In this document: piece by piece, positions 12,956-24,030 of the stretch
How the letters are laid out: every line of letters starts with the position of its first letter
How positions within the stretch are numbered: position 1 is the first letter of the stretch
Source: Acidobacteriaceae bacterium
Lineage (GTDB): Bacteria > Acidobacteriota > Terriglobia > Terriglobales > Acidobacteriaceae
NCBI GenBank assembly: GCA_035944135.1
Contig: DASZBM010000008.1
Span: 1 to 64,000, forward strand
DNA length: 64,000 nt
Direction: 5' to 3'
Notes under the pieces: generated by a model
What the model saw: only the letters and a program-made list of their open reading frames with translations
The model's database searches: none
Told to the model about the DNA's origin: nothing
Position numbers and translations under genes: made by a program

Positions 12956-13085
12956 AGGTTAGAGGGTAGAGAGTAGAAAACAGACGCACAACCGCCGTGG
13001 CGACCTTCGCGCACTTCTTTGCGAGCGCGTACGCGCTCTGCGTGAAACGCCTTTGCCCTTGTCTACCCTCTACCCTCTACCCCCT
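12940..13085. repeat. Composite intergenic repeat: purine arm, GCCGTGGCG core, pyrimidine arm
   Basis: The left arm (12940-12976) is AGAGGGTAGAG-type words and the right arm (about 13062-13083) is CTACCCTCTAC, so the arms are inverted copies. The core from about 12994 reads GCCGTGGCGACCTTCGCGC and ends CGCCTTTGCCCTT. The core also holds a perfect 16-base palindrome, GAGCGCGTACGCGCTC, at 13023-13038. The same architecture recurs at about 14703-14855. No coding potential is evident. Confidence 0.8.
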
Positions 13086-14702: not shown

Positions 14703-14855
14703 GAAACAGACAATAGAGAACAGGATAGTAGAGCACCACTACCGTGGCGTTCCTTCGCGTCGTCTGGGTGCAGGGCGAACTCGTTCGCTGGGGTGACTTG
14801 GCGCCCTTTGCGTCAAAGCCTTCGTTCGTTTCTACCCTCTTATTCTCTTCCTCCG
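14703..14855. repeat. Second copy of the composite intergenic repeat
   Basis: It starts right after the stop of the preceding gene with purine words (ATAGAGAACAGGATAGTAGAG-like), continues with ACCGTGGCGTTCCTTCGCGT and CGCCCTTTGCGTCAAAGCC, and ends with TTTCTACCCTCTTATTCTC. The order and orientation match the copy at 12940-13085, but the central part differs. The Terriglobia-type gene neighbours differ, so this is a dispersed element rather than a local duplication of a gene. Confidence 0.75.
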
Positions 14856-21298: not shown

Positions 21299-22900
21299 AT
21301 GTCTTCCCCTGCCGCCGCCCCTGACCTGCCCCAGACCTCGACAACTGAACCGAAGCCGGGTGCTGAAAGCACGACCGAAGTGTATGCGATCCATGGAGCG
21401 GAGCCGGAGGTGCTGGCGTATGCGATGGCGAGGTACTCGCGGTCGGCGCTGACCATGCGGGAGTCGCTGGTGGAGATCAGCTCGCAGAAGGCTGAGCAGT
21501 TTCTGAACACGTTTTATTTCCAGTATGGGCACAGGTCGATCGCGGACCTGGCGCATATTCCGTTTGCGGTGGAGAAGCTGTCGCTGCTGGCAGCGATCAC
21601 GCTGGTGGATGAGACCAGGTGGGACGGGCAGGAGCGGTCTACTCGATATCAAAATTTTCGGCAGAGCGGGTGGTGCACTCCGGAACTGAGCAAGGGAGCG
21701 CGCAAGCAGTACACGGCGGCGGTTGAAGCGCTGTTCAAGGCGTACGAAGAGATTGGGATGGGGATGTTTGCGGCGCTGGCGCAGGCGATTCCGCAGCCAA
21801 GCGAGATGAAGAGCGAGACGTATGCGCGGACGCTGAAGGCGCGGGCGTTTGATGCGGCGCGGTACCTGCTGCCGCTGGCGACGAACACGTCGCTGGGACA
21901 GATTGTGAATGCGCGCACGCTGGAGACGCAGGTGTCGCGGCTGCTGTCGAGTGAGTTTGCGGAGATTCGCGAGTTGGGCGGGAAGCTGCGTGCGGCGGCG
22001 AGCGATCCGGCGTGGAACGTGCTGCGCGACCGACTGGAGGAGATGGCCGGAGAAGGTGTTGTTGATCCGGCAGCGACGCAGGAGATTCTGCAGGTGTTGA
22101 TGCCTCCGGTGAAGGCCGCGCCGACGCTGGTGAAGTATGCGGAGGCGAGTGAGTACGCGATTGAGAGTCGCAAGGAGCTGGCGCAGGCTGCGCGGGAGTT
22201 GATGGGCGATGCTCCGGTGTATCCGGCGCCGGTGGTCGATCTGCTGGATGATGACGAGGACATTGAGGTCGAGATTGCGACGTCGTTGCTGTATCCGCAC
22301 TGTCATTACTCGTACAGGCAGTTGCGCGGGGCGGTGGCGGCGCTGAGTGAGGCTCGGCGGAATGAGATTCTGAAGCTGGGCACGGCGCACCGCGGGCGGC
22401 ATGATGAACTGCTTCGCGCGTTCAGCGCGGGGCATGGGTTCAGGTTCGACATTTTGATGGATGTGGGCGGGTTCCGCGATATGCATCGGCACCGGCGGTG
22501 CGTGCAGTTGATGCAGGCGTTCAGCGATGTGCATGGGTATGACGAGCCGGTGTGTCCGGGGCAGCCAACGCTGGAAGAGGCCGGGCTGGCGGACAAATAC
22601 AAGAGCGCGATGGATGCGGCGCGGGTGGCGTATCGCGAATTGTGCGATTCCGATGAACCTGAGGCAAAGCAGAGCGCGCAGTATCTGCTGCCGCTGGGCA
22701 CGCGATGCAGGGCGCTGTTCAAGATGGATTTTGCAGAGGCGCTGTATATCTCGGAGCTGAGGTCAGGGGTGGCGGGGCACTTCAGCTATCGGCGCGTGGC
22801 GTGGGAGATGTATCGCGCGATCGCGGTGAAACATCCGGCGCTGGCAGAGATGTTCCGGGTGCAGGATGTGAATGTGCCGGTGGATCTGTTGAAGCGGTAA
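21299..22900 (+). CDS. Double-length ThyX-like (FAD-dependent thymidylate synthase) protein
   Basis: 533 residues, about twice a normal ThyX. Both halves resemble the ThyX fold. The first half has YGHRSIADLAHIPFA (76-90) and QERSTRY (111-117), like the end of the ThyX signature, but DETR stands where its RHR should be. The second half has HRGRHDELLRAF and HRHRR (396-400), keeping the RHR but not the QERSTRY-like end. Canonical ThyX makes dTMP from dUMP using FAD, NADPH and methylene-THF; whether this version does is not shown by sequence. Start is ATG 21299 after a GGACATG context; the first 26 residues are Pro/Thr-rich and probably disordered. Confidence 0.75.
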   Translation: MSSPAAAPDLPQTSTTEPKPGAESTTEVYAIHGAEPEVLAYAMARYSRSALTMRESLVEISSQKAEQFLNTFYFQYGHRSIADLAHIPFAVEKLSLLAAITLVDETRWDGQERSTRYQNFRQSGWCTPELSKGARKQYTAAVEALFKAYEEIGMGMFAALAQAIPQPSEMKSETYARTLKARAFDAARYLLPLATNTSLGQIVNARTLETQVSRLLSSEFAEIRELGGKLRAAASDPAWNVLRDRLEEMAGEGVVDPAATQEILQVLMPPVKAAPTLVKYAEASEYAIESRKELAQAARELMGDAPVYPAPVVDLLDDDEDIEVEIATSLLYPHCHYSYRQLRGAVAALSEARRNEILKLGTAHRGRHDELLRAFSAGHGFRFDILMDVGGFRDMHRHRRCVQLMQAFSDVHGYDEPVCPGQPTLEEAGLADKYKSAMDAARVAYRELCDSDEPEAKQSAQYLLPLGTRCRALFKMDFAEALYISELRSGVAGHFSYRRVAWEMYRAIAVKHPALAEMFRVQDVNVPVDLLKR

Positions 22901-22908
22901 TGCTTGGC

Positions 22909-22957
22909 AGAAGCTTTGACGCTAAGGGCGCAAAGGTGCGGGAAGGTTCGCCACGGC
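22909..22957. repeat. Left 49-bp direct repeat flanking the GxxExxY gene
   Basis: Begins AGAAGCTTTGACGCTAAGG, 9 bases after the preceding stop codon, and ends GGTTCGCCACGGC. It matches the copy at 23405-23453 at 46 of 49 positions, without gaps (counted by eye). It is followed by a 20-base unit duplicated in tandem (22950-22969 and 22970-22989, one mismatch), each beginning GCCACGGC. Confidence 0.93.
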
Positions 22958-23000
22958 GGTTGGGGTGGGGCCACGGCAGTTGGGGTGGGATGAGGGTGAT

Positions 23001-23390
23001 GTGGGGCCTGAAGAGCTGAATGGGTTGGCGAAGCGAGTGCTGGATGCGGCGTTTCGCGTGCACTCGGCGCTTGCGCCTGGGCTGCTGGAGAGCGCATATT
23101 GCGCGTGTCTTGTCTTTGAATTGGCGCAGTCTGGATTAGAGATCAAGACGGAAGTGCCGGTTCCGGTGGTGTATCAGGGTGTGAAGCTGGCGGATGTTGG
23201 GTACAGGATTGACATTCTTGTGGCAGGTGAGCTGGTGGTTGAGGTGAAGTCGATCGAGACGGTCGCTCCGGTACACCTGTCGCAGCTGATCTCGTATTTG
23301 AAGTTGTCGGATCGGAGACTCGGTTTGCTGATCAACTTCAATGTCGAGCGGCTGCGGGATGGGATTTTTCGGCGAGTGAATGGATTTTGA
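23001..23390 (+). CDS. GxxExxY protein (PD-(D/E)XK-like, PDDEXK_3 family)
   Basis: 129 residues from GTG 23001. The start is chosen because a GAGGGT ribosome-like site precedes it and the N-terminus and length then match this family; GTG 22965 would start inside the tandem repeat. The signature G27-x2-E30-x2-Y33 (PGLLESAY) is present, and Asp71, Glu81 and Lys83 (RIDILV, VVEVKS) fit a PD-(D/E)XK nuclease core. Proteins of this family are known in intervening sequences of 23S rRNA genes and as orphans elsewhere; no biochemical function is established that I know of. The gene lies exactly between two 49-bp direct repeats, which suggests an inserted unit. Confidence 0.88.
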   Translation: MGPEELNGLAKRVLDAAFRVHSALAPGLLESAYCACLVFELAQSGLEIKTEVPVPVVYQGVKLADVGYRIDILVAGELVVEVKSIETVAPVHLSQLISYLKLSDRRLGLLINFNVERLRDGIFRRVNGF

Positions 23391-23404
23391 GGTCGGCTCG
23401 GCTG

Positions 23405-23453
23405 AGAAGCTTTGACGCTAAGGACGCAAAGGTGCGCGGAGGTTCGCCACGGC
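23405..23453. repeat. Right 49-bp direct repeat flanking the GxxExxY gene
   Basis: Same orientation as the copy at 22909-22957, 46 of 49 identical; the three differences are at positions 20, 33 and 35 of the unit. It starts 15 bases after the GxxExxY stop. The distance from repeat start to repeat start is 496 bases. Confidence 0.93.
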
Positions 23454-23992: not shown

Positions 23993-24030
23993 GGTAGAGA
24001 GTAGAGGTTAGAGAGTAGAGGGTAGAGACT
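23993..24030. repeat. GTAGAG-type purine repeat upstream of the SET gene
   Basis: A run of GTAGAG, AGTAGAGG and TTAGAGAGTAGAG words, of the same family as the arm at 12940-12976. It lies 18 to 55 bases upstream of the SET gene start and 62 bases before the next plus-strand gene, within their shared promoter region. Confidence 0.8.

Follow-up and report, generated by a model that had tools for sequence, protein, structure and literature searches.

A GxxExxY gene behind thyX and its probable partnership with a dispersed family of inverted repeat arms

How did a small gene of the GxxExxY family come to lie between two nearly identical repeats that point the same way? In the window, by which we mean the whole stretch of 64,000 nt analysed here, the gene (PDDEXK_3 type; 23001..23390, + strand) is intact and is enclosed by two same-strand 49-bp repeats, at 22909..22957 and 23405..23453, which are identical at 46/49 positions and stand 43 and 14 bases away from it. 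An earlier note on this DNA had described this arrangement correctly, and had proposed two possible origins for it: movement as a repeat-gene-repeat unit, or insertion into a single repeat with duplication of that repeat. The left copy, with a 47-bp core at 22911-22957, lies 8 bases beyond the stop of a thyX-like gene (Thy1, PF02511; 21299..22900, + strand), which ends at 22900, and a 20-bp tandem duplication, GCCACGGCGGTTGGGGTGGG / GCCACGGCAGTTGGGGTGGG (22950..22989, + strand), begins within its end. To the right of the second copy is a SET-domain gene (PF00856; 23496..23975, - strand). The related gene-less repeats that the note had also reported are present in the window as two degenerate copies of the unit, both on the minus strand (about 12994..13050 and about 14742..14820). 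Matches to a 22-bp repeat core numbered 2 in the window against 0.00 expected from 100 shuffles, and single window copies of the repeat have no significant fold (z -1.5 and -0.65).

The GxxExxY gene and its predicted product

The gene has a GTG start and encodes 129 aa; the start at 23001 is credible because eight orthologues have identical length. The product is a clear member of its family, scoring 123.7 bits with the TIGR04256 (GxxExxY) profile (E=4.7e-36; curated cut-off 35 bits) and 116.6 bits with that of PF13366 (PDDEXK_3) (E=1e-33; curated cut-off 22 bits), and both the name-giving GxxExxY motif and the D...ExK catalytic residues are present. Fourteen residues are invariant among 54 relatives, including G27, E30, Y33, R69, D71, E81, K83, H92, N112 and N114, and the conservation of E30, D71, E81 and K83 fits a PD-(D/E)XK active site. 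A structure model (pLDDT 94.1, pTM 0.88) had as its top PDB fold matches enzymes of the PD-(D/E)XK type, but weakly (E 0.017 and up): SSO0001, a member of the Cas4 family, the exonucleases lambda and LHK, and tRNA-splicing endonucleases. The protein is probably of the PD-(D/E)XK type, with a weak resemblance to the nuclease fold. With pN/pS values of 0.19-0.28 over the eight orthologues of the genus, the gene is under purifying selection.

It is the sole PF13366 gene detected in the source genome (4.43 Mb, 99.85% complete), which relatives from Granulicella and Terriglobus assign to the Acidobacteriota. Searches by sequence found no solved relative, and PHROGs gave no phage family. Assignment to a defence system was not adopted, the only matches in the defence library being to PDC-M36A (E 0.019 and 0.046). 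GxxExxY genes are widespread, and in the literature searched, which leaves most subscription literature outside and whose silence is no proof of novelty, we found no role or function described for the family or for its partner repeats. Decayed copies are not rare, as loci L112, L124 and L054/L057 show, where the gene has in-frame stops or its reading frame is split.

The thyX site across the genus

Among the 28 genomes of the genus that were compared, ten have the GxxExxY gene, the source genome included, and thyX is its conserved left neighbour. In eight other species (G010, G004, G011, G021, G006, G001, G023 and G024) the gene lies directly behind thyX, with no repeat between the two and with a hairpin or arms downstream. 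These eight orthologues share 69-78% protein identity with the window version, and the thyX-like proteins of the same species share 74-82%; since the two ranges are close, the gene is old and vertically inherited at this site, a long-standing resident behind thyX rather than a unit that has freshly jumped. Four further genomes (G009, G013, G020 and G022) have thyX followed by the next shared gene, with neither GxxExxY nor arms. In the gene-less site of G003 (L140), another palindromic element, of the TCATCTCGACCGAAGC...GGTCGAGATGAC type, was seen along with an apparent remnant hairpin arm.

The hairpins 3' of the gene at the shared thyX site have z scores of -12.6, -11.9, -5.2, -3.6, -3.2 and -2.9, and one has decayed. 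When arms were permuted among the species, the pairing total of the own arms was reached by only 37/5040 permutations; own arms beat swapped arms, and the two arms have therefore changed in concert. The right repeat of the window (23405..23453, + strand) occupies the position of this two-arm hairpin, but the second arm is absent. In the source genome the SET-domain gene takes the place of the usual downstream neighbour, another gene that is shared by most gene-bearing congeners, and a rearrangement has presumably removed the second 3' arm. Only in the source genome were the left repeat and the 20-bp duplication next to it seen. Two features account for the direct-repeat appearance of the locus: an additional solo arm that separates thyX from the gene, and a 3' hairpin that is reduced to one arm.

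These comparisons leave little of the two routes proposed in the earlier note. The direct repeats themselves speak for them, but orthologues occupy the same site in eight congeners without a left repeat, and the arms around such genes are usually inverted, which argues against both, as do long vertical inheritance behind thyX and a left repeat confined to one genome. The empty site with a single 49-bp repeat that was predicted was not found, the four bare sites having neither the gene nor either arm. We regard both routes as extremely unlikely, and shared synteny behind thyX rules out a composite transposon. No insertion with a clean empty site or a target duplication was caught, which also counts against mobilisation of the hairpins, and the presence and absence of the gene at the thyX site can equally be explained as losses.

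Repeat arms, hairpins and carriage of the gene

The earlier note was also right that the repeat belongs with the gene and is found alone as well. About 17 copies of one unit are present in the source genome, all solo, about 47 bp long and with the same boundaries. The unit reads AAGCTTTGACGC(A/T)AAGGGCGCAAAGGTGCGCGAAGGTTCGCCACGGC, contains subunits of about 10 bp in variable number and has unrelated sequence directly outside. All 17 lack an inverted partner up to a distance of about 200-250 bp, hence no hairpins are formed there, and the paired form is known from the relatives alone. Congeners have this unit in converging pairs, about 65 bp apart, that form strong hairpins; for example, 18/25 units listed for G004 are in converging pairs, 64-70 bp apart. 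Since the unit is paired and hairpin-forming in congeners, the window repeat represents a single arm from a dispersed family of inverted repeats. The genus-specific unit has a median excess of 39 in genomes that carry the gene vs 4 in those that do not (p=6e-4).

One copy of the repeat lies in frame inside a yggS-like gene of the source genome (L009 / L206, C1:292653-293435). It failed as a clean empty-site test: the loop that holds it varies from 32 to 94 residues across the genus, flanking motifs counted, and related sequence occupies this place in the nearest relative as well, so that this is an accommodated copy and not a clean insertion. No Rfam family matched the hairpins at gathering score, the single match being a tRNA in L046, and in the literature searched, mostly outside the subscription literature, the arm words turned up only in unrelated vertebrate papers.

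The association of arms and gene extends well beyond the genus. We picked GxxExxY loci by protein similarity alone, regardless of their flanks, from Bacteroidota, Planctomycetota, Verrucomicrobiota, Acidobacteriota, Elusimicrobia and other phyla, and took as the control the flanks of 239 other genes from these loci. An inverted arm pair, with a 9-12-bp period and the core CRCARAG, was present at 44/80 GxxExxY loci vs 6/239 other genes, where many of the 80 are from Flavobacterium and are therefore not independent. CRCARAG was found upstream at 53/80 GxxExxY loci (controls, 19/239) and inverted downstream at 60/80 (controls, 22/239). Arms matched their own partners better than the partners from other loci (scores of 26.0 vs 15.0; Wilcoxon p=8e-9), and against random segments, 57/83 loci had an inverted pair or an adjacent hairpin above the 99th percentile of the control. 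The arms lie close to the reading frame, at median distances of 31 and 48.5 bases, and at most loci they are inverted, not direct. Gene-less hairpins of the same type were common in the loci that were read.

Building units of the arms in the loci read include ACCACAGAGGACACAGAGG, CGCAAAGGNCGCAAAGG, CACGAAGGCACGAAG and CACCAAGGCACCAAG. Arms of other words were also seen, such as TCTTGTAAATYCTGTCAA, ATGAACACCGATGAACAC and CGCAGATTTACGCGGATGAACACAGAT, at L183 (G208), L185 (G216) and L169 (G300). In three genomes, G113, G178 and G253, the motif CRCARAGRNCRCARAG has only 1, 0 and 0 matches, against 14, 7 and 6 genes of the GxxExxY family, and the arms of two G178 loci that were read are worded CACGGAGGCACGGAG and CACGAAGAACACGAAG.

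This motif, CRCARAGRNCRCARAG, was counted genome-wide in 297 Acidobacteriota genomes, 112 with the gene and 185 without. It was chosen from the flanks of carriers, such that hairpins of other words in non-carriers would escape the count. Carriers had a mean of 24.9 matches (median 8), and non-carriers 1.08 (median 0); the reversed pattern gave 0.46 vs 0.31. Having 4 or more matches was strongly associated with carriage (OR 27, p=2e-27), and permuting carriage reproduced the association in 0/5000 trials within families (17 mixed families) and in 1/5000 within genera (14 mixed genera). More than 8 matches were present in 17/47 single-copy carriers vs 4/185 non-carriers, and copies flanking the gene are thus insufficient on their own to explain the excess. 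When 4 matches were subtracted for each gene copy the difference held (p=9e-6); when a generous 8 were subtracted, the rank test was not significant (p=0.23) and no more than 30 carriers kept a clear excess. Exceptions exist on both sides, as 41/112 carriers have <4 matches and 11 non-carriers have 4 or more. Some carriers therefore show strong dispersal, and in the rest it is weak or differently worded. The motif was also present in 40/43 carrier genomes reached via the cross-phylum loci, mostly with zero matches to the reversed control, a set that consists of carriers only.

A proposed REPIN-like partnership and its alternatives

Taken as anatomy, that these arms belong to a dispersed family partnered with GxxExxY is very probable, and the partnership of gene and repeats is well supported. 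The closest known system is that of REPINs and RAYTs, in which inverted doublets and singlets are dispersed and the phylogeny of the partner gene largely follows that of the species (PMC3116915). As there, a largely vertical partner gene is flanked by short repeats (inverted pairs at the cross-phylum loci, direct solo arms in the window), non-autonomous hairpin doublets and singlets are dispersed, and repeat number tracks the partner gene in the Acidobacteriota counts; the doublets are found in relatives, the source genome having solo arms only. Unlike in REPIN/RAYT, the partner is predicted to be of the PD-(D/E)XK type, Pfam and NCBIfam finding only PDDEXK_3 / GxxExxY in it and no HUH/Y1 (RAYT) transposase, and the arms have a 9-12-bp internal period in place of a short REP palindrome and are known from genome sequence alone. 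Because the anatomy and the dependence of repeat number on the gene agree, we propose a partnership of the REPIN/RAYT kind in which a protein of the PD-(D/E)XK type stands in for the HUH transposase, a reading to which we give an even chance.

In such a partnership, a single resident and vertically inherited gene would encode a small PD-(D/E)XK-type protein, and short arms with a 9-12-bp period, normally two and facing, both flank the gene and occur without it around the chromosome. The protein might recognise the hairpin or cruciform that two paired arms make in single-stranded DNA, or perhaps in a transcript, and nick at or near this structure; copying or repair would then spread gene-less hairpins. 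In the source genome the family is present as solo arms, one of which, between thyX and the gene, gives the locus its direct-repeat look. Nuclease activity, arm recognition and mobilisation in trans are all inferred for this protein, and we put active mobilisation of the hairpins at slightly below an even chance. MITEs and Rickettsia palindromic elements are likewise short, palindromic and dispersed, and the copy in the yggS-like gene lies in frame within a coding loop; unlike them, the arms lack the ends of any known transposase, and target duplications were not seen.

Three other readings stand beside the partnership. The hairpins could be primary and GxxExxY a passenger that settles in or next to them, is kept only where they exist and does not move them. 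This predicts the same flank anatomy and the same correlation of carriers with hairpins, and G239, G259 and G056 have many motif matches (41, 36 and 23) without the gene. However, it leaves the near-zero motif numbers in most non-carriers unexplained, also within families and genera, and sits poorly with the purifying selection and the intact predicted active site of the gene, such that we consider it unlikely. Alternatively, the arms could act at the RNA level, folding in the transcript, with the protein either acting on that RNA or being processed together with it. The short distance from arms to reading frame would fit, as would the tRNA-splicing endonucleases among the (weak) fold matches, and a precedent comes from Coxiella, where RNase III cuts out an intervening sequence of the 23S rRNA that encodes S23 (PMC4990558); a gene between inverted arms is the layout of S23 genes too. 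Against this, 23S rRNA k-mers gave no convincing match in the GxxExxY loci scanned, the window locus included, the window copy lies between thyX and the SET-domain gene and not inside a 23S rRNA gene, the hairpins lack an Rfam match, and dispersed gene-less copies require a route of copying beyond RNA excision. We hold this reading to be distinctly unlikely.

Another potential explanation is that the hairpins serve the host as ordinary bidirectional terminators or as mRNA-stability elements and lie near GxxExxY by accident. The thyX-site hairpin does lie downstream of the gene, with a right arm that in several species has GCTTTT at its end. But such arms are rare at other genes of the same loci, as the control counts indicate, and the need for terminators should not depend on carriage of GxxExxY, which makes this reading highly improbable. 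If the partnership with the gene is true, it would add a new type of partner enzyme for REP-like repeats, so far linked to RAYT transposases, and explain where many short repeats of the CACAGAG/CGCAAAG type, still without a name, come from in environmental genomes. The link to hairpins also gives the GxxExxY family a testable substrate.

The S23 parallel can be followed in the same genomes. The source genome has five S23/four-helix genes (PF05635) that stand between short repeats of another kind which face each other, and inverted flank arms were found at 26/40 S23 loci of the phylum. The best period was 7 or 14 bp in 22/26 arms long enough for scoring, whereas that of GxxExxY arms peaks at 9 (21/43) and is spread mostly over 9-12. 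The two protein families are unrelated and share a common design with a different arm grammar. In a joint model of CRCARAGRNCRCARAG counts the effect of GxxExxY was large (t=13.4) and that of S23 weak (t=2.7), and S23 was set aside as a driver of the CRCARAG motif. Compared with the S23-bearing 23S rRNA intervening sequences (PMC4990558), GxxExxY loci likewise have a small gene between inverted arms, a design that the free-standing S23 genes share with their 7-bp-period arms, but they differ in the lack of 23S context in the loci scanned, the unrelated protein, the arm periodicity and the dispersed gene-less copies. It is conceivable, if rather doubtful, that such partnerships of genes and hairpins exist throughout the phylum, with unrelated small proteins (GxxExxY, S23/four-helix) each recognising and propagating hairpins of its own repeat grammar, and that rRNA intervening sequences are a special case of such a minimal mobile element. 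The parallel would then offer an approach to the old question of what these intervening sequences are.

A short array of the S23-arm type, with a 7-bp period (TAGAGAGTAGAGGTTAGAGAGTAGAGGG), was also seen in the window at 23995-24022 and just beyond, with no adjoining S23 gene seen. At the five S23 loci of the source genome (L014-L018; C10:13316, C8:262325, C2:1584851, C4:53696 and C2:177471) the genes are free-standing, and the facing repeats have a period of about 7 bp, with words such as AGTGGTT, AGTGAAT and AGTCAGC.
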